Source: a virus. From it: 21,302 nt of DNA. The DNA is taken from positions 1 through 21,302 of IMG/VR virus record IMGVR_UViG_3300042507_004253; one strand, written 5' to 3'. Position numbers and translations under genes: made by a program. The notes under the pieces are model-generated. The model was not told where the DNA came from. It searched no databases and saw only the letters and a list, made by a program, of their open reading frames with translations. How positions within the stretch are numbered: position 1 is the first letter of the stretch; each line of letters opens with the position of its first letter. Below are positions 1-21,302 of the stretch, one piece after another.

Positions 1-763
1 CTGTAAGGTTACCGTTACCTACGAAAATTAGTGGGTCTGCTACAGCTAGGGTTGTAGTCTCAAGAGATGAGCTTTCTCCACCAAATGTAATAGAGCCGTT
101 GATGTTCACATCTCCGGAAATACCCACGCCACCCACAACAGTAAGAGCGCCTGTAGTAGGGCTAGTTGAAGCAGTTGGGATTTCAATGTGAACATTGACA
201 TCCGGAGTAATACTCATCTGCTCGTTGTCTGAGGCTAAACCACCAGCAGCAAAAATAATCTTATTTTGTGAGCCAGTATCGCCAGTAGCAAATACTAAGT
301 TACCTTGGTCAGTTCCGCCAGCAGCACCAACCATGAAGATATAGCCGTCGCCCTTGCCGGTAATTGTGAACTCTGCGTCAGCAAAATTTGAAGATGTGAT
401 ACCCATGTCAATGTAGCCATCAGTATCAGAGCCGTTGTTAGAGTAAGCAATAAAGTCAGTTGAAGCATCAGCAGAAGTGCTTGAGTTTTTAAAAGCAATT
501 TGAGCGTAGTCTGCGGCTGTAACATTAAATACAGCTACAGGATTGGTAAGAGCCGCAGCTGAAGAAAACCCAGCTGCTCCGCTACCCACATAAAGGATTC
601 CGCTAAGGTTGGCGTCAACAAAGGTACCGCCGCTAGCTTCGGCGTTTGCTAGGGCCTCAATAGCTTTTGAAACGTAGACAAGGTCTTTAGCGTTAAATAG
701 GGATGCCGCTAGCGAAGAGGCTATCTCCGTCTTAACTAAACCAATTTCTGTTGTAAGTGCCAT
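1..763 (-). CDS. Tail fibre paralogue P1 (3' end outside the window)
   Basis: Open frame of 254 codons reading leftward from an ATG at 763 to the window edge with no stop. The start is supported by AAGGAG about 9 nt upstream. After a short helical N-terminus (MALTTEIGLVKTEIASSLAA) it follows the shaft of the fibres at 6011-7900 and 2380-4296 almost block for block: DYAQIAF, YIDMGITSSNFAD, ITGKGDGYIFMVGA, NKIIFAAGG, ITPDVNVHIEIPT, TGALTVVGGVGISGDVNI, GSITFGG. It is closer to P3 than to P2. By family logic it is a trimeric, beta-rich virion fibre; its receptor-binding end lies beyond the edge. It is the last gene of the fibre run in the window and follows a 43-aa coupled ORF. The fibre role is inferred from paralogy and position; no enzymatic motif is seen. 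Confidence 0.85.
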   Translation of the reverse strand, partial: MALTTEIGLVKTEIASSLAASLFNAKDLVYVSKAIEALANAEASGGTFVDANLSGILYVGSGAAGFSSAAALTNPVAVFNVTAADYAQIAFKNSSTSADASTDFIAYSNNGSDTDGYIDMGITSSNFADAEFTITGKGDGYIFMVGAAGGTDQGNLVFATGDTGSQNKIIFAAGGLASDNEQMSITPDVNVHIEIPTASTSPTTGALTVVGGVGISGDVNINGSITFGGESSSLETTTLAVADPLIFVGNGNLT

Positions 764-786
764 ATGTGGGTCTCCTTAGATTTTTA

Positions 787-918
787 TTATACGCTAACGC
801 CGAGCTGTAAATCTTCTATATCGCCTTGCATTTCAACAATTGTGGCGTTGACCGTTGTAACGTCAGCCTGGCTAGCTGGCAAAAAAGCCACTAGGCGGTT
901 GCTTAGATATCCTGGCAT
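787..918 (-). CDS. Small 43-aa protein coupled to the LamG adhesin gene
   Basis: Short frame starting MPGYLSNRLVAFLPAS and ending DIEDLQLGVSV. Its ATG (918-916) overlaps the TAA stop (920-918) of the upstream adhesin gene as TAATG, which implies re-initiation by the same ribosome. The stop at 789-787 is followed by the Shine-Dalgarno sequence of fibre P1, so the ORF fills the gap exactly. A stretch around residues 18-40 has hydrophobic residues at heptad-like spacing, so a short coiled coil or chaperone-like role for a neighbouring fibre is possible. I recognise no family. It is below usual ORF-length cut-offs and easily missed. Confidence 0.55.
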   Translation of the reverse strand: MPGYLSNRLVAFLPASQADVTTVNATIVEMQGDIEDLQLGVSV

Positions 919-2378
919 TATAGTTGGTACCTATTCCTGTAGTAATCAAATAGGGAAGCTACCTCAGAGTCAGTAAGGCCCCTGTCGTACGCTAGGAAGT
1001 GCCCATACTCCGCAAAGGCAAAGTTGGTTCCAATATTGTCTTGGGCAATAATTAGCTTATTGATAGTGCCTATAGCGTCAGACATGGTACTTCCTGTGTT
1101 ATTTAATACGCCGTTTACATAGGCGTACAGGACATTTGATCGACGTACAAATACAAAATGTTTCCAAGCTGTTGAGCTAAACCCAAAAGTTGCTGTTCCA
1201 AACAGGCTACCGGTACTGTTATATCCAGTGGTCTGTCCGCCACCCCAGTTTTGTCGCATAGAGAATAGGTCTCGACTTCCGTTGGTATTACAAAAGTCCC
1301 AAACCATAGCGTTATCGTCTGTCCCGAGACTCTTATACATAACAGATACGGTAGCTTCGGTTTTTCCACTTAAAAGGCTTGCCATAGAGGTAGACTCAAA
1401 CTTAGCGCTGCTTCCGTTCATAGACCAAGCTCCACCGGAAAGAGTTGTAGAGTAAACTGCGTTAGTGTTTGTAAGATGCCTTGCATTTGCTGTGATGTCT
1501 TGCCACCCAGAAGTTGCTGGCATAGTTACAGTGTTATACGCGTTCCAAGAGCGCAGGTCTGCGGCATCGTAATGCAAAACTAAGTTAGTAGCTACCGGAG
1601 CAGTTGGGCTGGTAATAGACCACTTATCAATAAGAAAATTTTCAATATCAATTATTTGCTGGTTAGTTAAATCTGCTTTGCATATAATAATCTCAGAAAC
1701 AACACCCTTTGTATAAATGCCAGTTCCGCCTCTAGACATAAAGTAAACTTTTCCAGCTTCTGACCCAAAACCAGTACCGTCTAGGCTATCGTCTATTCCC
1801 GCTGGGTCGGCTACGGTATCAAAAGCATGTTCAACTTTGTTTGAGCGTAGCCTTAATTTCTTACTAATACCGTGATAACCAAATGTAATTACTTTTCTTC
1901 CACCGTCAGCTGCCCATGTGGGGCCGTTCGGGTACACGTGACGGGCTGTTTGGCGGGTTGCATCTTGAGCATATTTAATACTGTGGCCTCGTCCAGCGTT
2001 AATATACCAACCGCCGTCGTTTCCGGTGATAGTGTGCTCAGCAATAATTGCAACGTTTGGGTTTTGGATGTTGCATACCATAAACATTACAAACCCTGGA
2101 GCGCCAAAGGTAATTGTGTCATTGATAGTTGCTAAGCTATTTGCTACACCATCAAATGTAATACCTGGTTTATTGTTAAATGAGGTTGCGGAATAAACAG
2201 GCGTTGTTGAAGGGGAAGGAACACTAAGGTGGTACCCGCCCCCAGATATATCATTCCATTGAGTTACGTTAGACCCAGAAAGCGTTACTGAGGATGTAAC
2301 TGAAGCATCGTATCTGGCAAAAAGTCCTGGAAATAAATCTCCACCAGAAGCTGCCGTGTTACCAAATAATAACGGCAT
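918..2378 (-). CDS. Adhesin with two concanavalin A/LamG-like domains
   Basis: 486-aa protein built from two successive lectin-like jelly rolls. Domain 1 (about residues 15-255) opens with LFARYDAS, has VTQWNDISG and ITFDGVANS, and closes with the helix LTNQQIIDIENFLIDKW. Domain 2 (about 263-485) repeats the plan: LVLHYDAADLRSW, GWQDITANARHL, SMNGSSAKFES, and the closing helix LTDSEVASLFDYYRNRY. The 'hYDA...W.D.s' opening and closing helix are typical of LamG-like (Laminin_G_3) carbohydrate-binding domains in phage tails. The likely role is binding a host surface glycan; the ligand cannot be read from sequence. The ATG lies one base after the stop of fibre P2 and there is no good Shine-Dalgarno, so translation is probably coupled. 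No catalytic motif is visible, so a glycan-degrading enzyme is less likely but not excluded. Confidence 0.8.
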   Translation of the reverse strand: MPLLFGNTAASGGDLFPGLFARYDASVTSSVTLSGSNVTQWNDISGGGYHLSVPSPSTTPVYSATSFNNKPGITFDGVANSLATINDTITFGAPGFVMFMVCNIQNPNVAIIAEHTITGNDGGWYINAGRGHSIKYAQDATRQTARHVYPNGPTWAADGGRKVITFGYHGISKKLRLRSNKVEHAFDTVADPAGIDDSLDGTGFGSEAGKVYFMSRGGTGIYTKGVVSEIIICKADLTNQQIIDIENFLIDKWSITSPTAPVATNLVLHYDAADLRSWNAYNTVTMPATSGWQDITANARHLTNTNAVYSTTLSGGAWSMNGSSAKFESTSMASLLSGKTEATVSVMYKSLGTDDNAMVWDFCNTNGSRDLFSMRQNWGGGQTTGYNSTGSLFGTATFGFSSTAWKHFVFVRRSNVLYAYVNGVLNNTGSTMSDAIGTINKLIIAQDNIGTNFAFAEYGHFLAYDRGLTDSEVASLFDYYRNRYQL

Positions 2379-2379
2379 A

Positions 2380-4296
2380 TTAAGCCGCCAAATTGCCGAT
2401 AAGAAGGAAAGTGTTAGTAGCGGTTACAATAATTTGAGCAGAAGCCCACTGGCCGTTTAACTTTAACTTATTTCCATTAGAGTTCAAAGTACCGCTTGAA
2501 GCAATAGTGATCTGTCCGGTACCAGTTTGAACAATAGTCAAAACAGTTCCTGTTGCAAAAGTTCCTGTTGGGATTGTTACAGTTCCTGCAGTTGAGCTAT
2601 TAGAGGCCAAGATGATCTTGTCTTTATCTGACGCTTGCAAAGTGTAAGCATTAGATGTAAATGTAGGAGTTGTTGTTGTTTGAAGAAGTGGGGCGTAAGG
2701 CGCGATAGCTGTGCTGATATCTGCAGTTGTAGCTAATGTTGATGTAGTTGTAGGTAGTGTTAGTACAACTGAAGAAGGCGCAGTAATAGTTGCTGGCACT
2801 GTAACTGTTCCTGTAAAGGTTGGGTTAGCAGAAGGTGCTTTAGCATTTAATTGGGTTTGAATAGCTGAGCTTACGCCATCAAGATAGCCAATCTCTGTTG
2901 CGCTTACATCCCCAACAGTAAGAGAAGAAGCTGTAAGACCGCCTACGCGGACATCTGCAAATGCAAGACCTGCTTCAGAAAAATCAATTGTAGATGTTGG
3001 CTTTGTAGTTGCGTCTTTAAATGCTTTAATCACACCGTCTGAAGCATCACGCGCCATACCAGCAAACTTACGACGAGCAGATACTGCTGCTGAGCCTGAG
3101 GCTGCAGCCGATGTAACGTTTGCATTTGTTTTAGCGTAAGTAAAAGTAGTGGCGGTAGGAACTGCAATAATGTTAAATGTACCGTTGAACGTTGCGTCCA
3201 CACCAGATACTACAACAACATCTCCTGCAAGATACGTGTGGTTTGCTGAAGTAGTTAAAGTAGCAATATTAGAAGTCAATGCTTTGTTAGATACTGTTCG
3301 GGTAATCGTTGAAACTGTAGAAGCATATTCACCGATGAAAGCTAGGTCCACAGTATCCGCTTGGTTGTTAGTGCCTACAAATACAAACGGATCTGTAACA
3401 GAAAGGTTTGCGGTTTCTACAGTTGTACCCGCTCCACCAAAAGTAATAGTTCCTGCAATAGACACATCACCATCAATGTTCATATCTCCTTGAACACCTA
3501 CGCCACCAACTACTGTTAAAGCTCCAGTAGTTGCTGATGTTGAAGGGGTATCAATCTCAATGTGAACATTTACGTCTGGGGTGATCTCCATCTGTGTTGT
3601 TCCTGAGGAGTAACCGCCAGCGGCAAAAATAATCTTGTTATCTGTTCCGTTATCGCCTGTAGCGATAACTAGGTTACCCGCACCTGATGTACCAACAGGG
3701 GCTGACATAAAGATGTAACCGTCGTGTGGTCCTGTAATTCCGTAAGTAGCAGAGTTAAAGGTTGCTCCTGTAATACCCATGTCAATCCAACCAGCAGCGT
3801 CTGTTCCATTGTTGGCATAAGCAATAAAGTCGGTAGAGGAAGATGAGGTAGCGTTGTGTAGAGCTAGCTGACCATAAGAATCAATAGCACTGGATATGTT
3901 AAACACAGCCACCGCGCTTGTAAGAGCGGCGGAGGTATTAAAGGATGAGGCACCCGTTCCAACGTATAACGTTGTCATAGCCAAAGTTGTAAAAGTAGGA
4001 GCGTTTGTCCAAGAGGCTGCGGATCCGTTAGTAGTCAATACCTTGTTAGCATTATCTACTTGAGAAGGCAGGGCATTAGTAAGCTGTGCTGCGGGTACTT
4101 GAATATTTCCGTCTAGTGAGGCTACGCCGTTAGCTAGGCCCTTAACGGCAAGGGTGGATACAGCGTTAGAAATCTCAATGGCGTCTTTTACGGCCTTGGT
4201 AAGGAGTAGGTAGTCCTGAGCGCTTAGGGAGACGTTAGCTGTATTTAGCTTGTTCTGTAACGCCGTCTCAAACGTCGTCATAGTAAATGTTGGCAT
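2380..4296 (-). CDS. Tail fibre paralogue P2
   Basis: 638-aa Ala/Thr/Ser/Gly-rich fibre. Residues 1-60 are largely helical and polar and may attach to the virion. Residues about 110-486 share the shaft of P1 and P3: TGALTVVGGVGVQGDMNIDG, GTITFGGAGTTVETANL, and a compact block around DVVVVSGVDATFNGTFNI that is common in phage fibres, then DASDGVIKAFKD and IQTQLNAK. The last 150 residues are its own: LQASDKDKIILASNSSTAG through a Thr/Gly-rich beta domain to NTFLLIGNLAA. This end is unrelated to the P3 end and is the likely receptor-contact tip. AGGAG lies 8 nt before the ATG. It sits between cap B and the LamG adhesin. It is a trimeric fibre by family resemblance; the exact place on the virion is unknown. 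Confidence 0.85.
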   Translation of the reverse strand: MPTFTMTTFETALQNKLNTANVSLSAQDYLLLTKAVKDAIEISNAVSTLAVKGLANGVASLDGNIQVPAAQLTNALPSQVDNANKVLTTNGSAASWTNAPTFTTLAMTTLYVGTGASSFNTSAALTSAVAVFNISSAIDSYGQLALHNATSSSSTDFIAYANNGTDAAGWIDMGITGATFNSATYGITGPHDGYIFMSAPVGTSGAGNLVIATGDNGTDNKIIFAAGGYSSGTTQMEITPDVNVHIEIDTPSTSATTGALTVVGGVGVQGDMNIDGDVSIAGTITFGGAGTTVETANLSVTDPFVFVGTNNQADTVDLAFIGEYASTVSTITRTVSNKALTSNIATLTTSANHTYLAGDVVVVSGVDATFNGTFNIIAVPTATTFTYAKTNANVTSAAASGSAAVSARRKFAGMARDASDGVIKAFKDATTKPTSTIDFSEAGLAFADVRVGGLTASSLTVGDVSATEIGYLDGVSSAIQTQLNAKAPSANPTFTGTVTVPATITAPSSVVLTLPTTTSTLATTADISTAIAPYAPLLQTTTTPTFTSNAYTLQASDKDKIILASNSSTAGTVTIPTGTFATGTVLTIVQTGTGQITIASSGTLNSNGNKLKLNGQWASAQIIVTATNTFLLIGNLAA

Positions 4297-4320
4297 AAGG
4301 GCTCCTAAGGTCTTCTTGTA

Positions 4321-4719
4321 TTATAGATTAACTAGTGAGTAAGTTAAGGCTGTATTAGCGATATCTAATACAGTTTGATACTCAGTGCCCGACACATTGG
4401 TGTTATCAATGCCTGAGAGGGTAAAAGAGATATCCGCAGTTGAGGCTCGGACGTAGACCTTGTCATTTGGGGTTACTGGAAAGCGGAAAGTCTCAAGGGA
4501 GTTATTCCCAGCAACAGATGAGTTATAGGCAATAGTGGCGTGATTTGCGGGGGTTGAGTCTTGCCCAGAAGGAACAACCCAGACCCTGATAGTTGCATCA
4601 GTAGAAGACTTATTAGTAGCAATAATTGAGGCCAAGGCATCACGAGAACCAGAGCGTGTGTAAATAAGCGTGCTTGTATCCGCGCTTGGATTAGATACTG
4701 CGAGTCTTGAGATTGCCAC
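4321..4719 (-). CDS. Small beta-rich structural protein, cap B
   Basis: 132-aa protein starting at GTG with a strong AAGGAG 5-6 nt upstream, overlapping the end of the 138-aa gene by 29 nt. It is a paralogue of the protein at 7909-8364: both open MA[IV][ST]R followed by V[AS]NPxxxTST, then SxIATNK, the RxWVVP block, the N[SG][IL]E[TS][FH]RF block, and V[RY]VxAxTAD[IV]SF[ST]L[SN]GI. The alternating hydrophobic/polar pattern suggests a single beta-sandwich. Each copy is encoded directly upstream of a shaft-type fibre, so a role as an adaptor or cap for that fibre is plausible. This is inference; I do not recognise a named family. Confidence 0.7.
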   Translation of the reverse strand: MAISRLAVSNPSADTSTLIYTRSGSRDALASIIATNKSSTDATIRVWVVPSGQDSTPANHATIAYNSSVAGNNSLETFRFPVTPNDKVYVRASTADISFTLSGIDNTNVSGTEYQTVLDIANTALTYSLVNL

Positions 4720-5107
4720 TGTCTACTCCTTCGTATAGATACATATCCTCTGGGTCTACCCAGATCTTGTTTGTAAAGAACGGAATGTTCATCTCCCGCA
4801 TGCGGTTCTGAACCTTCTGTTGTGCACCTGGTCCATAGTATGTTTCCACACCATAGCCTTGCGCTTCCTTCTGCCAGCCTACACGGATCATGTAGAACTC
4901 AGCATAAGGACACCAAGCTGCATATACGCCAACTGCTCCGCCTTGCTCGTAGATAACTTCCCAGATATCTACATCTTCAACTTGAAGCTCTCGTGCGTAA
5001 TCCCAATCGTACTTTGGTGGATAGATAACCTTGTCGGAATCCATCCAGTTAATATCAAATACTTCACCAAAATCTTTAAATATATTGTGCGTTGATTTAA
5101 ATCTCAT
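4691..5107 (-). CDS. 138-aa phage protein of unknown function
   Basis: Protein rich in Trp and Tyr and acidic residues: MRFKSTHNIFKDFGEVFD at the start, a central WEVIYEQGGAVGVYAAW, then YGPGAQQKVQNRMREM and a WVDPEDMYLYEG end. It looks like a compact cytosolic or virion protein with no membrane segment or signal peptide. Composition differs sharply from the Thr/Ala-rich fibres around it. The ATG follows the glycine-rich adhesin stop by one base (TAA-C-ATG), so it is probably translated by re-initiation, and its 3' end overlaps cap B. The position after an adhesin parallels the 43-aa ORF after the LamG adhesin. A fibre assembly factor or minor tail component is possible; function unknown. Confidence 0.7.
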   Translation of the reverse strand: MRFKSTHNIFKDFGEVFDINWMDSDKVIYPPKYDWDYARELQVEDVDIWEVIYEQGGAVGVYAAWCPYAEFYMIRVGWQKEAQGYGVETYYGPGAQQKVQNRMREMNIPFFTNKIWVDPEDMYLYEGVDSGNLKTRSI

Positions 5108-5108
5108 G

Positions 5109-6002
5109 TTAGATAGCGTACCTGACTATTACAATACCGTTAGCTCCAGCACCGCCGCCAGCAACAGACCCTTCGTACTCTGCTCCGCCACCGCCGCTGC
5201 CAGTGCTCTGTACAACTGCAGTTCTAAAACCACCGTCAAGTGTGTTTCCACCAAAACCACCTACGTTGGAACCACCGGTACCTGCGTTAAGGTTTACAGG
5301 TGTGTCAGGAATGTTAAAATTGTAACCACCTCCGCCACCGCCAGCGTAAAATAAAGATGTTCCAGAAATAGAAGATGCTAAACCCGCACCACCATTTCCT
5401 CCTAAACCAATTGTAGAAACTTCTGTTATAGCGTCTGCTCCCGCAGCGCCAGCGCCTCCGCCTCCGCCTCCTGCACCATATGCAGCCGCATTGCTTCTTC
5501 CACCACCATTACCTTGCCCTACTGTGCCAGTAGTTCTTGTAGCAGTTGGGGTATCACCACCCTGCCCACCACCAGAACCTCCGTTATCGGCGTTTGCCCC
5601 CCCGGCAATACTGCCGCCACCACCAGCAACTGTAGTTAAAGAAAAAACAGAAGAGTTAGTTCCAGGATTACCTTTGGGTACACCCCCTCGCGTACCACTG
5701 ATGCCGCCTGCACCGCCAGAACCAACAACAACGGTGTAATTTGTTGCGGATACGGAGGACGTACCTGACAGTAGTCCCCCAGCCCCACCACCGCCGTGAC
5801 CCCCGCCGCCGCCACCAGCAACAATTAAATACTCAACTGTTCCTGTGCCACTTGCAGTAAACGTAGAGGAACCTACTGTAGTAAAAGTATGGATGCGGTA
5901 CCCCCCGGACGTGGTAATAGCCCCTCCAATAGAGTTTGCAAGCGCACTTACGCTACCGCTAAATGGTGTAAGTAAATTTCGTAAGGTTTCAATGTATGGC
6001 AT
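5109..6002 (-). CDS. Glycine-rich adhesin / tail fibre tip protein
   Basis: 297-aa protein dominated by long glycine runs. Residues 1-35 are an ordinary N-terminus (MPYIETLRNLLTPFSGSVSA). Residues 35-62 carry the entry signature of phage glycine-rich tail proteins: GGYRIHTFTTVGSSTFTASG then VEYLIVAGGGGGG. From there to about 285 come Gly/Ala stretches separated by short hydrophobic or polar loops, ending in GIVIVRYAI. In glycine-rich phage adhesins such as the S16 gp38 type, such runs form polyglycine II helices and the loops between them contact the receptor. That fold is a family-based expectation here, not seen directly. It starts at ATG with TAGGAG upstream, in which the TAG is the stop of fibre P3. 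Low complexity makes the region prone to alignment and assembly errors. Confidence 0.8.
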   Translation of the reverse strand: MPYIETLRNLLTPFSGSVSALANSIGGAITTSGGYRIHTFTTVGSSTFTASGTGTVEYLIVAGGGGGGHGGGGAGGLLSGTSSVSATNYTVVVGSGGAGGISGTRGGVPKGNPGTNSSVFSLTTVAGGGGSIAGGANADNGGSGGGQGGDTPTATRTTGTVGQGNGGGRSNAAAYGAGGGGGGAGAAGADAITEVSTIGLGGNGGAGLASSISGTSLFYAGGGGGGYNFNIPDTPVNLNAGTGGSNVGGFGGNTLDGGFRTAVVQSTGSGGGGAEYEGSVAGGGAGANGIVIVRYAI

Positions 6003-6010
6003 TAAAACTC

Positions 6011-7900
6011 CTAAGCAAATCTAGATTGAGCGCCGAGTACTGTAAATGTTGCGGATGCGGTTTTAATAATTGTAAATGTGTAAGAGTCAATAGAGTTAGC
6101 GTTACCAGCAGCAGGGGCATTTCCGCCATTCCACTTAGGAGTAACAGCTGAACCATCTACTTGGAATACTGTTGGCTTATAAGCTGTAGAGCCGTTAGTT
6201 ACTAAGAAAGCAACAGTAATGGATTGACCGGTAGACATCAAAGAGTTAAGGGTAGTTGACCCGTCTCCACGGAAGTTAAACGTCCAATCAGCGGTTGCGT
6301 TAGAGGTAAAGTACTTAACACCAGAGGTGACAATATCAACTTGGACTGTGCCTGTGGCCGCTGTTGCTGCAATTGTAATTGGCTCTAAAGGAGAGACAAG
6401 CACTGGTCGAGTTAAAGTTGCTGATGTTAGAGGGGCATAAGTAGAAGAAGCTGTTGCTGACTTTAGGTAACCTTGACCTACAACGTAAGCTGTAGTAGCA
6501 ATTTGAGTTGTGTTTGTGTCGACAGAGGCTGTTGTAGAAAGTGGTGTGCCTGTTAATGATGGGCTTTCTAGTGGTGCATAAGTAGAAGCTGCTGTAGCAG
6601 TAGCTAACTTAGCATCTAGCTGTGTCTGAATAGCAGAGGTTACGCCATTAACATATTGAAGTTCTGTATTAGATACATCTCCAATTGTGGCTGAAGTGGC
6701 TGTTATAGCGCCCATCTGTACTGCTGCAAAACTAGAACCAGCTTCTGCAAAGTTAATAGTAGACGTAGGCTTTGTGGTAATGTCTTTAATAAATTTAATA
6801 ACGCCATCAGAGGCATCGCGGGAAACCGCAGCAAATCTACGCTGTAGGGATACTGATACAGAGCCAGTAGCTACTGCTGAAGTTACGTTAGCGTTTTCCT
6901 TAGCAAATGTAAAAGTAGTTGTTGTTGGTACGCCTGTTACATAGTGAGTACCGTTGAAGGTAGCATCCACACCTGTTACAACTGCGATATCGCCAACAGC
7001 AAATCCGTGCGTTGCTGAGGTGGTCAGTGTTGCTACATTTGAAGTTAACGCCTTGTTAGACACAGTCTTTGTGATTGTAGATATTGTATTTGCGTACTCT
7101 CCAACAAATCCAAGGTCAAGAGCATCACCTTGGTTTACGTTTCCTGTAAAGATAAGTGGGTCAGATACCGCAAGGTTTGCAGTCTCAACTGTAGTACCAG
7201 CTCCGCCAAAAGTAATTGTTCCATCAATGTTTACATCGCCTGAGATACCAACTCCGCCGACTACAGTAAGAGCACCAGTTGTAGGTGATGTAGATGGTGT
7301 AGGGATTTCAATGTGGACGTTTACATCAGGTGTGATAACCATCTGTGTGTTATCTGAAGATAGGCCACCGGCAGCAAAAATAATCTTGTTCTGTGTACCT
7401 GTATCAGAAGTAGCAAATACTAAGTTTCCTAGGTCAGTAGCGCTTGCGTCAGCGCCCACCATGAAGATATAGCCATCGCCTTTACCTGTAATAGTAAAGT
7501 CTGGGTCTGCAAAGTTGCTTGAAGTAATACCCATGTCGATATAACCAGATGCATCGGTACCATTATTAGAGTAAAGAATTAAATCTGTAGAGGCATTAGC
7601 GTTAGAAGAACGGTTGCTAAACGCAATCTGTGCATAATCTGTAGCTGTAGTAGTTACTACTAAAGTTGGGTTTGTAAGGGAAGCAGTTGTTGCAAAAGCT
7701 TCAGCGGCTGTGCCAAGATAGATGTTGTCGTTAACAGTGATATTAGAAACACCATCAGGTGCTACGACGTGGCTTACCGCCTCAAGTGCCTTAGCTACAT
7801 AGACTAGGTCCTGAGCGCTGTACTGTGACGCCGAAAGTCCAGAAGAGATTTCTGCTTTGATTGCGGTGACCTGGGTCTCCAGGCTTGTATAGTTTGGCAT
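6011..7900 (-). CDS. Tail fibre paralogue P3
   Basis: 629-aa fibre with the same shaft as P1 and P2 over about residues 58-431: SNNGTDASGYIDMGITSS, ITGKGDGYIFMVGAD, NKIIFAAGGLSSDN, TGALTVVGGVGISGDVNIDG, AVVTGVDATFNGTHYV, IQTQLDAK. The middle has STYAPLxSxxLTxPxL repeats (about 445-505) seen in many tail fibres. The C-terminal domain (about 510-629) includes GVKYFTSNATADWTFNFRG, ITVAFLVTNGSTAYKP, and a TFTVLGAQSRF end. This type of terminal domain is frequent in phage fibres but differs from the P2 tip. The start is supported by TAGGAG, whose TAG ends cap A. It is presumably a homotrimer, but which attachment point it uses is unknown. Confidence 0.85.
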   Translation of the reverse strand: MPNYTSLETQVTAIKAEISSGLSASQYSAQDLVYVAKALEAVSHVVAPDGVSNITVNDNIYLGTAAEAFATTASLTNPTLVVTTTATDYAQIAFSNRSSNANASTDLILYSNNGTDASGYIDMGITSSNFADPDFTITGKGDGYIFMVGADASATDLGNLVFATSDTGTQNKIIFAAGGLSSDNTQMVITPDVNVHIEIPTPSTSPTTGALTVVGGVGISGDVNIDGTITFGGAGTTVETANLAVSDPLIFTGNVNQGDALDLGFVGEYANTISTITKTVSNKALTSNVATLTTSATHGFAVGDIAVVTGVDATFNGTHYVTGVPTTTTFTFAKENANVTSAVATGSVSVSLQRRFAAVSRDASDGVIKFIKDITTKPTSTINFAEAGSSFAAVQMGAITATSATIGDVSNTELQYVNGVTSAIQTQLDAKLATATAASTYAPLESPSLTGTPLSTTASVDTNTTQIATTAYVVGQGYLKSATASSTYAPLTSATLTRPVLVSPLEPITIAATAATGTVQVDIVTSGVKYFTSNATADWTFNFRGDGSTTLNSLMSTGQSITVAFLVTNGSTAYKPTVFQVDGSAVTPKWNGGNAPAAGNANSIDSYTFTIIKTASATFTVLGAQSRFA

Positions 7901-7908
7901 CTTATCTC

Positions 7909-8364
7909 CTAGTCAAAAATTCCCAAGCCTAATTCTAGCGAAATTAGGCGAGTATTGAGGGCGTTGGTGGTGGTAAGTGTAGCTAAGTTCGCAGTATCGG
8001 CTATACCGTGAACATTTGTAGTTTGCGGGATATGCGCATCAATTGAGGCCGATGAGTCATATATACCGTTTAGTGAGAAAGATACATCCGCGGTTGTAGC
8101 TGAGACACGTACAGTGTCTCCAAGAGAGATAGCGAAGCGGTGGGATTCAATACCGTTACTAATAGGAAGAGCAACGTTGTAGAGCATATAAGCATGGTCT
8201 GCCGATGAGGTTGATCCGTTAGGGACAACCCAAGCGCGGACAGTGCTTGCAGCAGCGCCTTTGTTAGTTGCAATAACTGAACATAAGTAGGCAGCATCTG
8301 CTGTAAAGATTGTTGTAGAGGTGTTGGACGCGGGGTTAGCAACACCCATTCTAGTTACAGCCAT
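7909..8364 (-). CDS. Small beta-rich structural protein, cap A
   Basis: 151-aa paralogue of the 4321-4719 product, matching over the first ~120 residues (VANPASNTSTTIF, SVIATNKGAA, RAWVVPNG, GIESHRFAISLGDTVRVS, ADVSFSLNGI). It has an extra C-terminal segment of about 30 residues, ALNTRLISLELGLGIFD at the end. It is encoded immediately upstream of fibre P3, as cap B is upstream of P2. The ATG directly follows the stop of the tip-like gene to the right, with a G-rich stretch (GGGGGTC) as a poor ribosome site. The predicted all-beta character and pairing with a fibre suggest an adaptor, but no named family is recognised. Confidence 0.72.
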   Translation of the reverse strand: MAVTRMGVANPASNTSTTIFTADAAYLCSVIATNKGAAASTVRAWVVPNGSTSSADHAYMLYNVALPISNGIESHRFAISLGDTVRVSATTADVSFSLNGIYDSSASIDAHIPQTTNVHGIADTANLATLTTTNALNTRLISLELGLGIFD

Positions 8365-8694
8365 TTAGACCCCCAAGAACCAGGCAGAGGTAAGATCCGC
8401 TGCACTAGCTGTAGAAGTTCCACCACCGCCGGTGCTAACAAACTCACCGTCGTAATAGACAAGTAAAGAGTCTGATGTTGGATCAAACCACAAAAGACCT
8501 TCACGAAGGTTTGTAGTCGGCTCGGACTCAGCAACCGTTACTCCACCGCCAGCCTCAGACCAAACTGTCCCGTTCCATACGTAAAGCGCCTTAATGTCTG
8601 TATTAAAATACAGGTCACCCACCTTAATAGTGGGTACTGTAGGCGCTGCCGCTAGGGCAGGTATGTTTACGGGAGTTAGGTTTAGGCGACTCAT
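8365..8694 (-). CDS. Small tail fibre-associated protein with two beta-hairpin repeats
   Basis: 109-aa protein containing two copies of a short motif common in phage fibre and tip proteins. Copy 1 (residues ~25-45) is GDLYFNTDIKALYVWNGT and copy 2 (~66-86) is EGLLWFDPTSDSLLVYYDGE. The same motif appears once near the N-terminus of the next fibre (GQVYFNTAANEMRIYNGT). A GGGGTSTASAA linker leads to a short C-terminus. The ATG overlaps the stop of that fibre as TAATG with no separate ribosome site, so the two are probably made in fixed ratio. It is probably a minor fibre or baseplate-edge component. Confidence 0.7.
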   Translation of the reverse strand: MSRLNLTPVNIPALAAAPTVPTIKVGDLYFNTDIKALYVWNGTVWSEAGGGVTVAESEPTTNLREGLLWFDPTSDSLLVYYDGEFVSTGGGGTSTASAADLTSAWFLGV

Positions 8695-10157
8695 TATGCG
8701 TGTACTACGACCCTGTACTTATTAGTAGTTGGAGCAACAGAGAATAGCACAGTAATAGTGTTTGTAGTTGTATGCTCAACATCGGCCATAACTTCTGCGT
8801 ATGGAGAAGCTGTGTCGTAGAGACTTACAACTACATCGCGGGTGTTTAGGTTGTGGGTCACTGTGTAAGAAGTGTTTGTACCATCTCCAATGCTGGCCGC
8901 ATACTTAGTAACAACTACTGTGCGGTCAATTACTACGCTATCAGCGTTTACAGTAATACCGTCTCCGCCAACTACATTAAGTGTATTAGCAGTCTTAGTT
9001 AAACCATCTCCAGCAGTGATTTGGCCAAGGCCAGTAAACTGTGTGAAGCTTAATTCGCTTGTTCCAACGGTGATTGTTCCGTTGTTAGTTAGTGTCCAGC
9101 CAGAGTCAGCGTTTACAGTTCCTTCTTCTACAAAGACTGCAAAGGAAGCTGTGATTTCCGCTGCTGTATCTGCGTCAGATGAACGAGCGGGTGCTCCAGA
9201 TGCGGCTACTACATAGATACCGTTTTCTGTTGCGTCTGTTTGATTCTTAACAAGTATTCGGTTGCCTGTAGCAAGAGTTACTCCGTCAAGAGTATCCCCG
9301 TTTTCAAAAGCTGTTGCAAGAGTAACGGCTGCTGTAGTTGCTGCACGAACAGAGGCTTTCCAGTCAATACCTACAACTGCCGCATCAACATAACGCTTGT
9401 TAGCGGCATCTTGTGGGTTAGTTGGGTCTGTAAGATTTGTGATCTTCTGGTTATTAAGGTCAACAGAAGCAGTTGCAAGAGCAAAGTCATGAAGCTTGTT
9501 CTCAACGCGAGCAAGAGTACCGTTAGCGTCTGGCACATAGATTGTGCGGTCAGCTGTTGGATCTACGAACGAGAGCGTGGTTTCAAAGCCGTCTGTGGTT
9601 GAACCTTCAACAACAATACTAAGGTCAGAAAGGTATAGCCCAGAAACAACTGGGGCTGTAATTGTTTTATTTGTAAGAGTATCGACTGTGTCGCGACCAA
9701 CAAGAGTGGTTGTTAAGTCTGGAAGAGTTACTGTACGATCTTCAGTCGGGTCACCAGCTGTAAGAGTAAGCTCAAAAGCGTTAGCAGTTGCTCCTTCAAA
9801 TACAAGATTAACACCAGTATCAAGGGTTACTGTGCCAGTAAAAGTTGGGTTAGCTGAGGGAGACTTAGTATCAAGCTGAGCTTGGATGCTAGAGGTTACG
9901 CCGTCTACATAGTTAAGCTCTGTAGTAGTAAGTGTGGCACCATCAAGGATGTTGATTTCTGCAGCGTCGGCTGTAACACCGTTAAGGCCAATTGCTTCAA
10001 AGATCGTACCGTTATAGATACGCATTTCATTGGCGGCTGTGTTGAAGTAGACCTGACCAAGAACTGGGCTAGATGGGTCTGTTGCCAGATTTTGAACTAC
10101 CGCGTTTTGTAGTTCATTCTTCGCCAAATCAATTGACGTTAGAAACTTACGTGCCAT
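8694..10157 (-). CDS. Tail fibre protein with KRYVDA-type domain
   Basis: 487-aa fibre with blocks widespread in phage tail fibres. A GQVYFNTAANEMRIYNGT hairpin lies near residue 33. Next are TTTELNYVDGVTSSIQAQLD and NPTFTGTVTL, two copies of a 'FETTLSFVDPTADRTI(YV/TL)PD' block, and LNNQKITNLTDPTNPQDAAN followed by KRYVDAAV. A domain around WKASVRAAT, RILVKNQTDATENGIYVV and FVEEGTVNADSGW is familiar from many tail fibres. The C-terminal module (about 415-487) is SYTVTHNLNTRDVVVSLYD, shared with the next gene upstream. AAGGAGAGAG precedes the ATG, so this gene has its own good ribosome site. Its position next to the connector suggests it may be the fibre closest to the tail, but that is inference. 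Confidence 0.85.
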   Translation of the reverse strand: MARKFLTSIDLAKNELQNAVVQNLATDPSSPVLGQVYFNTAANEMRIYNGTIFEAIGLNGVTADAAEINILDGATLTTTELNYVDGVTSSIQAQLDTKSPSANPTFTGTVTLDTGVNLVFEGATANAFELTLTAGDPTEDRTVTLPDLTTTLVGRDTVDTLTNKTITAPVVSGLYLSDLSIVVEGSTTDGFETTLSFVDPTADRTIYVPDANGTLARVENKLHDFALATASVDLNNQKITNLTDPTNPQDAANKRYVDAAVVGIDWKASVRAATTAAVTLATAFENGDTLDGVTLATGNRILVKNQTDATENGIYVVAASGAPARSSDADTAAEITASFAVFVEEGTVNADSGWTLTNNGTITVGTSELSFTQFTGLGQITAGDGLTKTANTLNVVGGDGITVNADSVVIDRTVVVTKYAASIGDGTNTSYTVTHNLNTRDVVVSLYDTASPYAEVMADVEHTTTNTITVLFSVAPTTNKYRVVVHA

Positions 10158-10469: not shown

Positions 10470-11528
10470 CTAATCCAATGTTACTTGCTGTTGAGTAAAT
10501 ATTTGGCCCCTAACATATGTCTGCTCAAAGTTAGGGTCAGAAGGCATCGTTGCTTGTAGATCCCAAAAAGCTCGTGCAGGCATGTATCTAGTAGCACTTG
10601 ACGGAAGAGTTAGTTGGATAGTTCCATTAGCAGCACTAGTTTTTGCAATTGTAAACGTTGCGTAAATTGCTGGGCTGTTTGGGTAGGTTCGCACTTGAGC
10701 TTTAAAATCCAAGTTTGTTACATCAAATGGGAAGTCAAATGTGCCCGACCAGTTATCGCCCTGGTAAAGGATGATGTCGTAGGTGCCCGCGTAAGAAGGT
10801 AGCGGAACGCGCCCCTTCAAATCGTTATTAATATAGATGCGCTCTGGCTTGCGAGAGTCATCAACCTCTTGAGCTAGGTAGATAGGGACTAGCTTGTTAG
10901 TTCTGCGTGATACTCTGCGTAGAGTACCCATCTCCAACCGCCACAAACCAATGTTAAGTGCGGCGCATAGCTGCTTGTACTGCTCCATACGTTGAGCAAT
11001 TATTCCTGTGAGCTGCTGGTAACGCTGTGCTCGCGGAATCATAACTCCATCTGGAGCGGTGATGTTAATGTCAAAAGCTGAATCAGTAGCTAACGTCCAT
11101 AGGCCCTCAATAGCCGACAGGATGGCTACAGGATACTCTTCAACAGGTGGTAGAGACGCCATGGTAACTTGAGTACCAAACTGGTCTGTACGGTTGTCTG
11201 TGTGCTGTAGAACGGCTGTATTAACGAACTCTTCAAGCTCACTATCTAGGAAATATCTAGAAGACATGCCTTCAACTACAATTGCAGCGTTAAGGGCTGG
11301 AGCGGTTACAAAGTGAATCATGCCTATGCTCTGTTCAAGGGTGTATCCAGCTGGGTAGGCAATTGCTGTTCCATTTACGGTTACATACAGCCCTGTTAAC
11401 TCAACAGGTTTTACATTCAAATAAAAGTCTTTTAGAGAGCCTGTTCCTGTAGCAGTAAATCTAAACTGCTTTTTTGAGTCCCCTAGTTCGGTGCGTACAC
11501 GCGTAACTATGTCTGCAAGTAGGGCCAC
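10470..11528 (-). CDS. Connector/neck-like protein fused to a C-terminal beta domain
   Basis: 352-aa protein. Residues 1-230 have an N-terminal helix (LLADIVTRVRTELGD), a small beta insert around residues 40-85, and a helical core (YFLDSELEEFVNTAVLQHT; RYQQLTGIIAQRMEQYKQL), the plan of head-tail connector or neck subunits. Residues about 247-352 form a separate beta domain: YDIILYQGDNWSGTFDFPFD, LDFKAQVRTYPNSPAIYA, and FWDLQ. This block also occurs in upper-baseplate and fibre-attachment proteins. The start is GTG with GAGGAG upstream. It is the first gene after a strong stem-loop and heads the fibre run. Connector role and fibre-docking tail are inferred from position and fold pattern. Alternatively it is a baseplate/tail-hub protein. 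Confidence 0.6.
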   Translation of the reverse strand: MALLADIVTRVRTELGDSKKQFRFTATGTGSLKDFYLNVKPVELTGLYVTVNGTAIAYPAGYTLEQSIGMIHFVTAPALNAAIVVEGMSSRYFLDSELEEFVNTAVLQHTDNRTDQFGTQVTMASLPPVEEYPVAILSAIEGLWTLATDSAFDINITAPDGVMIPRAQRYQQLTGIIAQRMEQYKQLCAALNIGLWRLEMGTLRRVSRRTNKLVPIYLAQEVDDSRKPERIYINNDLKGRVPLPSYAGTYDIILYQGDNWSGTFDFPFDVTNLDFKAQVRTYPNSPAIYATFTIAKTSAANGTIQLTLPSSATRYMPARAFWDLQATMPSDPNFEQTYVRGQIFTQQQVTLD

Positions 11529-13204: not shown

Positions 13205-13984
13205 TTAACCGAACAGCCCGCGAGACTTACCACGAGCGGAATCGCTCATGATTCGGTCTCTGATTTTTGCGTATTCGTTCATCGGCATGGCAGCAATTTC
13301 TTGCGCCGTTAAGGTTCGTTGCTCCGAATTAGTTTCCAATGGTCCAGCGGGAGGAGTAGTAATACTCGTACCCTTCATTTCTTTTCTAGCGTTCTGCATG
13401 GCAGACTGCGCTGATTCAAGAATGCTTGCTGAACGTTCCTTTAGTCGCTCCACGCTTTCAGCGAGTTCTTCACGGGTATTACCCTGAATGAAATCAACTA
13501 GCTGTGGAATGATATTGTCACGTTCTTGTTCAATTACTTGTTGACGATAAGATTGCAAGTCTGCATATGTCTTTTCGCGCTCCAGAAGAGCGAAGGCTCG
13601 TTCGCGTTCTTGACGCTCACGCTCCAACTGCTCCTGCAACTCACGAGTTTTAAGTTCAGCATAAGACTTTGCATCTAGCTCAGACTCTTCTGCTTCCTTA
13701 ATACGTAGTGCTTCAGCTTGCGCTTCTGCACTTCTACGAGCTGCTTCTTCTTCTTTTTCTTTTCGTAGTGAGTTAAGTTCTTCCTTCAAACTTTCAATTT
13801 GAGGGTAGAGCTTATCTTTCTCCTGGGAACGGACACGTGATAAGTCTTCGTCCGTATAGAACCGAGACTTAACTTCATCCGTAGTAGTAACAGTCGGCGC
13901 GTCAACGCCCGACACATTTACAACTGGAGCTATACCAGCATCTGCTTCAAAAGCAGCTACCATGTTTTCTGCAGTTTCTGACAT
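13205..13984 (-). CDS. Capsid scaffolding protein
   Basis: 259-aa, highly charged, coiled-coil protein directly before the capsid gene, the standard place for a scaffold. Residues 1-40 are an Ala/Val/Thr-rich acidic tail. Residues about 45-160 are near-continuous helix dense in Glu, Arg, Lys and Gln (SLKEELNSLRKEKEEEAARR, LQEQLERERQERERAFALLE). A second helix runs to about 205 (ELAESVERLKERSASILESA), and the C-terminus is a flexible segment with a basic end (ARGKSRGLFG), where scaffolds usually bind the capsid. No serine-protease motif is visible, so a protease-scaffold fusion is unlikely. AAAGGATG precedes the ATG. Confidence 0.8.
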   Translation of the reverse strand: MSETAENMVAAFEADAGIAPVVNVSGVDAPTVTTTDEVKSRFYTDEDLSRVRSQEKDKLYPQIESLKEELNSLRKEKEEEAARRSAEAQAEALRIKEAEESELDAKSYAELKTRELQEQLERERQERERAFALLEREKTYADLQSYRQQVIEQERDNIIPQLVDFIQGNTREELAESVERLKERSASILESAQSAMQNARKEMKGTSITTPPAGPLETNSEQRTLTAQEIAAMPMNEYAKIRDRIMSDSARGKSRGLFG

Positions 13985-14065
13985 TCTTACATCCTTTGTA
14001 TTCTAGGGGTCGTTTTCCGAAATGAGAGCACATATGACCAAACGTTGTATTACATGTTTATTTTC

Positions 14066-14094
14066 TCTATACCTATGAAAAATTACAGGCTAAA
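14066..14094 (-). promoter_or_regulatory. Candidate promoter before the scaffold-capsid genes
   Basis: Minus-strand TTTAGC (14094-14089), 17 bases, then TATAGA (14071-14066). Matches to the sigma-70/SigA consensus are 3/6 and 4/6. It lies in the 115-bp gap between portal and scaffold, the longest gap inside the head module. A weak hairpin (AGGC-GTTTA-GCCT followed by T5) overlaps it. An extra promoter here would raise scaffold and capsid output, but the match is modest. Confidence 0.25.
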
Positions 14095-14099
14095 CGCCT

Positions 14100-15821
14100 T
14101 TATTTTTCGTAGACTTCTGGAACTCTCCTTTGCGGAAGTTGTGTTCCATAAGCTTGTGTGACGAGGTTAGCGCGGATACCGTCTCTACCCATTTGGGCCG
14201 CGATAGTTGCGTCGTCAATTACTGGTGGCAATACCGATTGAGGTACCCCTTGTTCAGGACTTCCGCCGCCAACAGGTTGAGCTGGAGCGCCGCCAGGGCC
14301 TAGCTGAGCAGACTGCATTCCTGTGAGGGTCATGATGTCGTTTTCAATTTGAGTCTGAACCATCTTTAGAGCGCCGTCAGACTTGGCATCTTCAATAAGT
14401 TCTTGACGAATTTCAGTTAACTTCTCTGCTGGGAACGCCTCGCCTAGTGCGCGTAGAGCGCCTTCCTTAGACTCAAGGCCCAAAGACAACTTGCTTTGAA
14501 TCTCGTTAAGAACAATTAGATTATCTAATGGCAACGGAGGTGGGAACTTAACGTAATTCTGGAAAGTAATTGGGTCGTTAGGGTCAAGCTGAGCTGCCTG
14601 TCCGGGCTTTAGAGGCACCTGGCTAGTGTTAGGGTCCCAGGTAAAGGTCTCAGGCTCTTTAACAGCAAGTGATATAAGGATGAGCTCGTTAACACGCTCT
14701 ATGCCGTGAGTGTATTGAATAATCTTTTGGTGGTAGCGGTTCATCAAAGGCTGGAACATAATAGAAAGCGCAACGCCTGACGTGTTAGAGATAGGCATAG
14801 CTTGTCCAAGAGCCGTCTCTGGAATACCAATCATTTCGTGCATTGACTTCTTTAACAAAGCCATGAAGTCCATAGCACCCTTTAAGCCTTGTGCTCCGCC
14901 TTCTAGGTTTTCTACTTTTGCGTCTTTAGGAAGTCCGCCCCAGACTTTGTTAGCGCCCTTTTCCAATTGTGAAGCTTTGGCACCAATGATGACTGTGACG
15001 GGAGCAGCGTGATAGTTAACAATGTCAGCGATGTCAGTAGCAGTCTCGTTATAAGCACGGTTAATATTAATAATATCATTACAGTCGCTAAGACCCCAAG
15101 GGCTACCACTAATGCGAACATTAGGTATATGAACAATGGGAATAATGCCAAGCGGATTAGGGCGCGAATCAATGAGTTCGTCGTTAATGTATTCTTCAAT
15201 GATGTCATCAGTTAGAATTTCTGTGTAAGTAAAGACTTGACGTGTGCCTTCAAGAGAGGTTCCCCAGAAGCGGTACTTTAGCTTAAAACGAATTAAACGT
15301 TCACGGTCATGCGGGTGAAATTCTGGAAACGCAAACGATGAGTTAAGCGGAAGAATGCGAATACGTCCAGGGTGTGGTCGACCAACTGTGTCAACCCAAG
15401 CTTCTTCATAAGCAACTTTAATAAAGCAGTCTCCAGATACAGAACCCTGCTGTCCCATTTCCCAAAGAACTGTTGCCTTGTTGTTATCTACTTCCCACAC
15501 ACGTTCTAGTAGCTGCGGAACAATAGCTTCTGTGTACTTTGATGAGGCAAAGCTTACGCCTTTACCAAAACAGAAATTAATAAGGAAATCTGTAAATGCT
15601 CTGTAATAGTTGAGCATGATTTGCGCTTCGCCTGTTTGACGGCGGTATGAATAGTGATGACCAAGGTACATTGCCCAGTTAAGAGAATAACGATTTAGAC
15701 GAGGGCCGTGTACTTCAAACTCTTCATCTGCAAGTTCTACTAGCCCCAGCGGGGAGATGGAGATTGTTAAGTCAGAGGAAGCTGCGCGATAACTCGGTGG
15801 GGAGAAATCAATACCGCTCAC
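14100..15821 (-). CDS. Phage portal protein
   Basis: 573-aa portal, the dodecameric ring at the packaging vertex. It lies between TerL and scaffold in the usual order. The N-terminal wing contains NYYRAFTDFLINFCFGKGVS and VDNNKATVLWEMGQQGSVSG followed by DCFIKVAYEEAW, the 'G.v.GdaflkV..d' block of portals. The crown and clip region includes NPLGIIPIVHIPNVR, SPWGLSDCNDIININRAYNE, then GALKGAMDF-like linker sequence and HEMIGIPETALGQAMPISNT followed by SGVALSIMFQPLMNRY, the portal tunnel-loop/stem area. The last ~90 residues are Gly/Pro/Gln-rich and flexible. The start is GTG with AGAGGT upstream. Length and order fit the broad siphovirus/podovirus portal superfamily; I cannot assign a narrower class. 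Confidence 0.87.
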   Translation of the reverse strand: MSGIDFSPPSYRAASSDLTISISPLGLVELADEEFEVHGPRLNRYSLNWAMYLGHHYSYRRQTGEAQIMLNYYRAFTDFLINFCFGKGVSFASSKYTEAIVPQLLERVWEVDNNKATVLWEMGQQGSVSGDCFIKVAYEEAWVDTVGRPHPGRIRILPLNSSFAFPEFHPHDRERLIRFKLKYRFWGTSLEGTRQVFTYTEILTDDIIEEYINDELIDSRPNPLGIIPIVHIPNVRISGSPWGLSDCNDIININRAYNETATDIADIVNYHAAPVTVIIGAKASQLEKGANKVWGGLPKDAKVENLEGGAQGLKGAMDFMALLKKSMHEMIGIPETALGQAMPISNTSGVALSIMFQPLMNRYHQKIIQYTHGIERVNELILISLAVKEPETFTWDPNTSQVPLKPGQAAQLDPNDPITFQNYVKFPPPLPLDNLIVLNEIQSKLSLGLESKEGALRALGEAFPAEKLTEIRQELIEDAKSDGALKMVQTQIENDIMTLTGMQSAQLGPGGAPAQPVGGGSPEQGVPQSVLPPVIDDATIAAQMGRDGIRANLVTQAYGTQLPQRRVPEVYEK

Positions 15822-18304: not shown

Positions 18305-18329
18305 GTCGCCCTTAGTGTAAGAGAAAACA

Positions 18330-18361
18330 AAAAGCCTGGGCGTTTAAACCCAGGACCTTTT
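18330..18361. terminator. Intrinsic terminator upstream of terL
   Basis: Stem CCTGGG/CCCAGG (18335-18340 with 18349-18354) with an 8-base loop. On the minus strand it is followed by CTTTTTGTTTTC, a good T-tract; on the plus strand by ACCTTTTT. It ends transcripts of the small-gene cluster at 18.4-19.9 kb and lies only ~26 bp before the terL start, inside the leader of the candidate promoter at 18398-18406. Confidence 0.7.
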
Positions 18362-18397
18362 GGTGCCATCACGGGAAGAGGAAGAGAGGCAAGCATA

Positions 18398-18406
18398 AGT
18401 GTAGCA
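18398..18406 (-). promoter_or_regulatory. Candidate extended -10 promoter for the terL operon
   Basis: On the minus strand, TGCTACACT (18406-18398) fits an extended -10 (TG-N-TANNNT). There is no good -35 at 17 bp; AATCGA occupies that place. It lies downstream of the 81-aa gene stop and upstream of terL, where a late promoter would be expected. The transcript would cross the terminator at 18330-18361 before reaching terL. Confidence 0.3.
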
Positions 18407-18409
18407 CAA

Positions 18410-18433
18410 TTGTCGACAAGTCGATTTATCGAC
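18410..18433. promoter_or_regulatory. Adjacent GTCGA palindromes, possible operator
   Basis: A 10-bp perfect palindrome TTGTCGACAA (18410-18419) abuts GTCGAT-TT-ATCGAC (18420-18433), directly upstream of the candidate terL promoter. GTCGAT/ATCGAC half-sites also form the inverted repeat at 15855-15876. Repeated half-sites near gene starts suggest a DNA-binding protein site; no cognate regulator is in the window. Confidence 0.35.
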
Positions 18434-18671
18434 GCGTCGTTCTGGTCTTTAGCTCATGGACAACGGCATGTAAAGCCTCTGCCCCAAGCAAAGCTTCTTC
18501 TAAAAATATAGGCTCTCTCTGCTTTGAGTAGGCCGACATACATCTACCTATCTCATAGATTGATTGCTCAATCCATTGTTCTAGCTCAACTGTAGGTATT
18601 TTACCTACGCGGTTTGATACCTTCTCAGAAAACGGCTTTACCCATACCTCTTTACGTTTAAAAAGATTCAT
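18426..18671 (-). CDS. 81-aa helical protein of unknown function before terL
   Basis: Starts MNLFKRKEVWVKPFSEKVSN and then is mostly helical: VELEQWIEQSIYEIGRCMSA and EEALLGAEALHAVVHELKTR, ending in a basic TRTTRR. I chose the ATG at 18671, which overlaps the upstream gene by 14 nt, over an in-frame TTG at 18701 that would overlap more. A small helical protein next to terL could be a small terminase, but it lacks a clear helix-turn-helix and is short, so this is only a possibility. It is the last gene before the terL terminator. Confidence 0.6.
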   Translation of the reverse strand: MNLFKRKEVWVKPFSEKVSNRVGKIPTVELEQWIEQSIYEIGRCMSAYSKQREPIFLEEALLGAEALHAVVHELKTRTTRR

Positions 18672-18948: not shown

Positions 18949-18950
18949 AG

Positions 18951-21259: not shown

Positions 21260-21262
21260 AGC

Positions 21263-21295
21263 AAAAAACCCCCGGCTATTAGCCGGGGGTTTTTT
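21263..21295. terminator. Strong bidirectional intrinsic terminator after the lysin gene
   Basis: Stem CCCCCGGCT/AGCCGGGGG (21269-21277 with 21281-21289), 3-base loop, extended by A6/T6 (21263-21268 with 21290-21295). T-tracts lie on both strands, so it can end transcription from either side. It begins 3 bp after the lysin stop. Confidence 0.93.
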
Positions 21296-21302
21296 GTTTG
21301 TG

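Follow-up and report, generated by a model that had tools for sequence, protein, structure and literature searches.

How can a phage carry three fibres of common descent, each followed by an adhesin of a different kind, and what would tell an adhesin which fibre is its own? The question is raised by a fibre array in a freshwater phage, contained in a contig of 21,302 bases (IMG/VR record IMGVR_UViG_3300042507_004253; hereafter the window). An original prediction had listed its genes, in transcription order, as cap A, fibre P3, a glycine-rich adhesin and a 138-residue protein; cap B, fibre P2, a LamG adhesin and a 43-residue protein; and finally fibre P1. We confirmed this order and the positions of the genes (Table 1). 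Our analysis indicates that the array is probably a host-recognition cluster in which three paralogous fibres carry exchangeable adhesins docked onto their tips.

In the proposed mechanism, the C-terminal tip module of each fibre would act as a socket and the first ∼16 residues of the adhesin encoded by the next gene as the matching plug. Each of four tip types (A, B, C and D) would have a plug sequence of its own, type D by way of a jelly-roll 'cap' adaptor. The part after the plug could be a binding body of any kind, whether glycine-rich TNF/polyglycine, LamG, SPRY, FN3 or another, and receptor binding could be altered by swapping adhesin bodies, or blocks of tip plus adhesin, between slots and genomes. 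The arrangement would be comparable to T-even gp37/gp38, but multi-allelic and three times repeated. The fibres are presumed to be trimeric and located on the tail, and all three could be displayed on one virion.

The fibres are paralogues of each other (P1/P3, 67% over 252 residues; P2/P3, 57% over 455 residues; P1/P2, 58% over 204 residues); caps A and B likewise form a paralogous pair (44% over 110 residues, E 6e-28). P1 is cut at the window end; a second contig, L169, which overlaps the window by 5,324 bases at 100% identity and without a mismatch, completes the array with the full P1 (610 residues), a glycine-rich third adhesin of 289 residues and an 81-residue gene. Searches with the fibres and caps yielded relatives of the same gene order, giving seven complete arrays (window plus L169, L086, L088, L171, L172, L173 and G008). 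Cap A, P3, cap B, the 43-residue gene and P1 were homologous in all 21 array pairs (mean identities of 70, 77, 72, 53 and 74%, respectively), and P2 in 17 of 21 (mean identity 70%). The first protein of each slot, with homology defined by low-complexity-masked BLAST over ≥40% of the shorter protein, was homologous in 0/21 pairs for slot 1, 0/21 for slot 2 and 1/21 for slot 3. The expectation that caps and shafts stay constant while the adhesin slot varies thus holds across the seven arrays, and the postulated exchangeability of the binding modules agrees with the absence of relatedness in 62 of 63 slot comparisons and with the occurrence of one LamG body in slot 2 of the window and slot 1 of G008. 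These comparisons support a constant scaffold with variable slots and slot exchange. The number of fibre-adhesin units also varies between relatives.

Side-by-side reading of the slot proteins revealed that those with unrelated bodies share similar starts, and that the type of start depends on the end of the preceding fibre. After tip A, found at the end of P3, the next gene begins with approximately MP[LI][LI]xTxGAASAxGFG. After tip B, found at the end of P1 in the window and of P2 in L086, L088, L090 and G008, it begins with approximately MPFISSVRGSFGPQGR. Tip C, at the end of the window P2, is followed by starts close to PLLxGNTAxxGG or ILGxIASGISGHL. Where the fibre ends in tip D (P1 in L088, L090, L091, L171, L172, L173 and G008), a jelly-roll cap comes next, and the adhesins behind it start with approximately MAISRxSxSS. 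The tip of P2 varies between phages: some have tip C and others tip B, in each case with docks of the corresponding type. Within the window array, the glycine-rich adhesins of slots 1 and 3 carry an A and a B dock, respectively, matching P3 and P1.

For a quantitative analysis, loci were fetched by profiles of tips A and B, blind to the dock, which gave 147 distinct pairs of tip and next gene (majority class, 85). Between next-gene proteins with non-homologous bodies, similarity stopped after residue 16. Using a nearest-neighbour rule from which homologous bodies were excluded, residues 3–22 predicted the tip type correctly in 144/147 cases, compared with 91/147 for residues 41–60 and 85/147 for residues 71–90. 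With tip C included, the dock residues were right in 154/163 cases and the two body stretches in 72/163 and 71/163. Tip identity also correlated with dock similarity within types (Spearman 0.39 for A and 0.42 for B; reached by 0 of 500 permutations), but not with residues 46–64 (0.00 and 0.04). In the nine genomes with at least two tip types, 23 of 24 docks were nearest to their own type in another genome, a result with a probability of 1.4e-4 if docks were dealt randomly within genomes. Kinship was handled by excluding pairs with homologous bodies and by using these genomes with two or more tip types; residual relatedness of the tips remains in the statistics. A forecast set before the DNA was fetched, namely that a C-type dock would stand behind P1 of L086, which ends in tip C, agreed with the start then found, MTYPILFGVMAGQGG.

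The LamG adhesin of the window provides the strongest single case for the rule. Its body recurs behind a tip-A fibre in slot 1 of G008 with 75% identity over 470 residues, and the first ∼20 residues are of type A in G008 (MPLLETRGSSSAVAYGLNSG) and of type C in the window (MPLLFGNTAASGG). At L340, this body stands behind a tip-A dock. One body has thus been combined with two tip types, its dock matching in each case the tip of its own fibre.

Well over a hundred other phage loci follow the same plug-and-socket rule, including those of the isolated Roseobacter phages CRP-3 and CRP-738 and cyanophages P-SSM7, S-CAM22 and S-MbCM6; in the majority of these isolates, the tip-A protein is followed by a glycine-rich one. 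In phage MW202481, the depositors annotated the gene after the tip-A protein as 'phage tail fiber adhesin gp38'. Tip A itself had no meaningful match among PDB sequences. Two further observations concern tips and their neighbours. At L340 14627–16551, two tandem glycine-rich adhesins, both with type-B docks, stand behind a single tip-B fibre and possibly represent alternative or mixed tips. At L086 5252–6202, a PASTA-domain protein with a weak Hint (intein-like) match follows a tip distantly related to type C.

The bodies behind the docks measure 150–1400 residues and are mostly unrelated to each other; among the relatives they comprise LamG (one to three domains), SPRY with DUF7483, FN3, glycine-rich and other, unassigned types. 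In the window, the two slots hold unrelated folds as had been proposed (Gly_rich_2, E 1e-18; Laminin_G_3, E 2e-8). The slot-2 adhesin had been described as a double LamG protein; we found one Pfam LamG domain (residues 330–474), and the only match of its N-terminal half was a PHROG of virion structural proteins. Among PDB sequences this adhesin had no match. The model of the glycine-rich adhesin (predicted local distance difference test score, pLDDT, 77; predicted template modelling score 0.81) matched the folds of the mycobacteriophage Bxb1 tail tip (Z 14.4, 189 residues) and the Pam3 tail fibre (Z 13.2, 188 residues), clearly above unrelated entries; the match to the glycine-rich domain of ALK/LTK was weaker (Z 7–8). 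The TNF-like plus glycine-rich fold is shared with Bxb1 and Pam3 gp24. Pam3 gp24, however, binds the baseplate through helices at its own N-terminus, whereas the slot-1 adhesin has no N-terminal helical baseplate-docking domain of this kind and is predicted to plug onto a separate fibre by a short peptide.

The logic of the array is that of T-even gp37/gp38 (T2, PP01 and Salmonella phage S16). There, too, a separate adhesin gene directly follows the fibre gene, as in all three slots here, and the glycine-rich, variable adhesin has an N-terminal part that fits its own fibre tip and cannot be swapped at will between phages (PMC12892980). A gp38 from one phage may fail to work with the gp37 of another, and replacing its N-terminal part makes it functional again; PP01 gp38, for example, fits T2 gp37 only after such a replacement (PMC12892980). 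The tip specificity of the adhesin N-terminus in the 144 correctly predicted pairs is the counterpart of this behaviour at the sequence level. The array differs from the T-even system in its ∼16-residue dock, its several tip/dock types, its LamG, SPRY and FN3 bodies and its three fibres. No gp38 family was detected in Pfam at E ≤ 1, nor any gp38 among the PDB sequence matches; S16 gp38 was also absent from the fold matches of the glycine-rich model, which is no evidence of a different fold. As for the polyglycine-II sandwich with a beta-helix domain that marks the T-even adhesins, the model showed a glycine-rich fold whose closest matches were Pam3, Bxb1 and ALK.

Several phages with multiple receptor-binding proteins per genome, such as phiK64-1, RaK2, phiKp24 and the Ackermannviridae, join their tailspikes or fibres in branched assemblies. 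The array resembles them in that one genome encodes several putative receptor-binding proteins, and differs in that its exchange point would be the distal fibre tip. Pelagimyophages and cyanomyophages have a host recognition cluster, a large hypervariable island with several fibre genes within the structural module (PMC7029224). The fibre region described here is likewise hypervariable, differing between phages with a near-identical major capsid protein, and lies between p352 and a homologue of gp142, upstream of the tail sheath gene. The portions of PMC7029224 considered here describe variability in gene content and no array of fibre paralogues in which tips and docks are matched. In open-access text on exchangeable or docked adhesins and LamG phage fibres, no account of a paralogous fibre array with such a multi-allelic tip/dock code was found.

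Minus-strand genes of the window encode the terminase, portal, scaffold and major capsid proteins; downstream of the capsid gene follow p120, p352 (a homologue of BRock gp143) and the fibre array. In L169, the 81-residue gene is followed by homologues of gp142 and gp139 and by the tail sheath gene, so that the array sits between two conserved head-tail genes, upstream of the sheath. Streptomyces phages BRock and LuckySocke have gp143 and gp142 side by side, so that, compared with them, the window phage carries the whole array as an insert. The major capsid protein is 71–73.5% identical to those of BRock, LuckySocke, Alone3, pSt2308 and GiJojo. The tails of BRock and LuckySocke are considered contractile because their records hold tail sheath and baseplate genes, and by its capsid sequence the window phage is a relative of these two contractile-tailed phages. 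The same kinship makes an actinobacterial host likely. IMG/VR contains at least 599 related capsid loci. In phages whose capsid protein is 97–99% identical to that of the window (L004, L005 and L008), close homologues of the window caps and P3 can be missing from the fetched DNA. L004 and L005 (98–99% identical) have instead a distant type-C-like tip followed by a protein beginning MGKRVGKKSQASNDF; the entire region seems to have been exchanged.

Several points weigh against a cluster of tip-docked adhesins. The dock of the glycine-rich adhesin has a pLDDT below 50 in the monomer model, its residues 1–17 being without secondary structure. Tip C docks are weaker, with 10/16 assigned correctly, and tips A and B are diverged relatives found partly in different phage lineages. 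Cap B lacks the usual neighbour ending in W[WF]LG[VA] and does not fit. The support as a whole consists of sequence comparison and predicted models. Finally, p487, which is encoded upstream of the array and has a short motif in common with P2 and P3, carries a 'head decoration' PHROG label, which would also allow a location other than the tail.

This label belongs to the best surviving alternative, in which the products would be head or neck decoration fibres whose variable part binds surfaces or host cells from the capsid. The position of the array between head-completion and tail genes, the match of p487 to phrog_2647 and the weak resemblance of the cap jelly-roll to capsid cement and turret proteins (Z 9.1 and 8.1) would agree with it. 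We nevertheless regard it as unlikely: the glycine-rich adhesin matches solved tail-tip and tail-fibre proteins, an annotated tail fibre or tailspike gene lies one gene away, past gp142, in BRock and LuckySocke, and in P-SSM7 and S-CAM22 the genes annotated as tail fibres have tip-A homologues nearby.

It is more doubtful still that P3, P2 and P1 are joined end to end in a single long composite fibre, as in T4 gp34–gp37, of which only the last adhesin would bind a receptor. The genes are indeed consecutive and in one orientation, and on inspection the fibre N-termini look helical and come after a C-terminal helix in cap A or a similar tail in cap B and the 43-residue protein; every fibre, however, repeats the same shaft and has its own tip and its own matched adhesin, and the varying number of units among relatives does not suit a serial fibre.

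There is also little reason to regard the slot products as fibre-assembly chaperones of the Tfa/T4 gp38 type, which would fold the tip and then leave, their N-terminus serving as a client-recognition signal. Genes of such chaperones also lie directly downstream of fibre genes (T4 gp38, Mu Tfa and Pam3 gp25; PMC9608196), but the size range of the bodies, their mostly mutual unrelatedness and their lectin-like or glycine-rich receptor-binding folds are at odds with this role, the conserved part of Tfa-type proteins is a trimerising C-terminal domain, and p138 is a better candidate.

Least credible by far is a DNA-level recombination linker or translation signal whose peptide has no role, for although conservation stops sharply at the module boundary, identical dock residues use the same codon at close to the random rate for tip A (0.35; 0.33 expected from codon usage) and only modestly above it for tip B (0.43; 0.35 expected), third codon positions are the least conserved and the peptide tracks the tip sequence within types, so that this candidate was disfavoured by codon use and selection appears to act mainly on the peptide.

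Beyond the window, we lean towards a widespread multi-allelic docking code, with somewhat less assurance than for the array itself. Phages of many unrelated lineages (freshwater actinophage relatives, T4-like cyanophages, roseophages and uncultured phages) may attach adhesins via short tip-specific peptides and draw on a shared pool of adhesin bodies, and their receptor-binding proteins might be recognised and paired with a fibre by sequence alone. Receptor-binding proteins of uncultured phages are hard to spot because their bodies share no homology; a tip-matched dock peptide would offer a sequence handle that both finds them and assigns their fibre. The rule would also explain how host-recognition genes are exchanged without breaking virion assembly, and docking is directly testable with two purified proteins.

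The idea of a repeated unit of cap, fibre, adhesin and small protein stood in part. Paralogous fibres with variable adhesins do recur, but neither small gene is a regular member of the unit, and the pairing of a cap with the next fibre was not upheld. The 43-residue gene, assigned to unit 2 by the original prediction, leads the third unit by its position in all seven complete arrays. The 138-residue gene is rather a companion of glycine-rich adhesins: of its 16 homologues with an open reading frame in front of them, 13 have a glycine-rich protein encoded there, and the gene itself is found at slot 1 in the window and L170 and at slot 2 in L086, L088 and G008.

The caps are ambiguous as partners of the following fibre. 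In the AlphaFold2 (AF2) model, cap A forms a jelly-roll and ends in a helix. It resembles many small phage virion proteins of ∼105 residues (BFVD); in PDB only weak fold matches were obtained (Foldseek E > 1e-3, Z ≤ 9.1), and no solved family was assigned. A role as adaptor or virion decoration before P3 is putative. Cap-family genes usually follow a gene whose product ends in W[WF]LG[VA] or LMGA; counting hydrophobic glycine-containing ends (e.g. WWLGV or FMLMGA), this applies to 56 of 71 distinct cases, cap B excluded. A cap may therefore be the partner of the preceding tip, and that of cap A in the window would probably be p109, not P3. In L344 (13250–17984) and L345 (13250–18804), short fibre-like proteins ending in WWLGV/PFLFGVI, a cap-family gene and a ∼90-residue gene precede each fibre, possibly as a further tip/partner pair.

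Table 1. Features of the fibre array and its borders (window coordinates unless indicated).
Feature	Position	Strand	Basis or remark
p352, homologue of BRock gp143	10470..11528	-	Conserved left border of variable region
p487, fibre or other virion structural protein, upstream of array	8694..10157	-	phrog_2647 'head decoration', E 2e-74
p109, small fibre-like protein, C-terminus AWFLGV, probable cap A partner	8365..8694	-	Just before cap A
Cap A, jelly-roll (residues 1-102) and C-terminal helix (112-150)	7909..8364	-	44% identity with cap B; AF2 pLDDT 84
Fibre P3, 629 residues, unit 1	6011..7900	-	Paralogue of P1 and P2
Tip module type A, C-terminal 125 residues of P3	6011..6388	-	phrog_5906, E 3e-27; tip alignment
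Type-A docking peptide MPYIETLRNLLTPFSG of slot-1 adhesin (predicted dock)	5955..6002	-	Conserved in 85 tip-A neighbours with largely unrelated bodies
Slot-1 adhesin, glycine-rich, 297 residues, TNF-like and glycine-rich fold	5109..6002	-	Gly_rich_2; model fold matches
138-residue accessory gene (p138)	4691..5107	-	Travels with glycine-rich adhesins
Cap B, 132 residues, GTG start, 29-base overlap with p138	4321..4719	-	Paralogue of cap A
Fibre P2, 638 residues, unit 2	2380..4296	-	Paralogue of P1 and P3
Tip module type C, C-terminal 105 residues of P2	2380..2697	-	phrog_21978, E 7e-12; tip alignment
Type-C docking peptide MPLLFGNTAASGGD of LamG adhesin (predicted dock)	2337..2378	-	Sequence comparison
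Slot-2 adhesin with LamG domain, 486 residues	918..2378	-	Laminin_G_3
43-residue gene, leader of unit 3, C-terminus similar to cap tails	787..918	-	Directly before P1 in 7/7 complete arrays
Fibre P1 (unit 3), first 254 of 610 residues, cut at window end	2..763	-	Paralogue of P2 and P3
P1 tip type B and glycine-rich adhesin with type-B dock	L169 4562-7273		Beyond window

Genes for modifying enzymes were observed in or near the arrays of relatives. L086 carries a tryptophan halogenase gene in the adhesin region (18054–19646; Trp_halogenase, E 2e-102), and in L186 (Actinomycetia phage DSL-LC01) an annotated tryptophan halogenase lies just past the gene that follows the tip-B protein (13791–15362); modification of virion proteins by these halogenases is possible. 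2-Oxoglutarate-Fe(II) oxygenases resembling prolyl hydroxylases are found within the fibre/adhesin arrays of L088 (13579–14079) and L086 (6199–6780), and a glycosyltransferase with TPR repeats lies at the array end in L344 (2901–3947), adjoining the gp142 homologue. At the other end of the window, a transglycosylase-like gene (20720–21259) runs on the plus strand, against the direction of the structural genes, and is followed by a GC-rich hairpin flanked by A and T runs (21259–21299; −31.9 kcal/mol, z −6.7), which is probably a bidirectional terminator.

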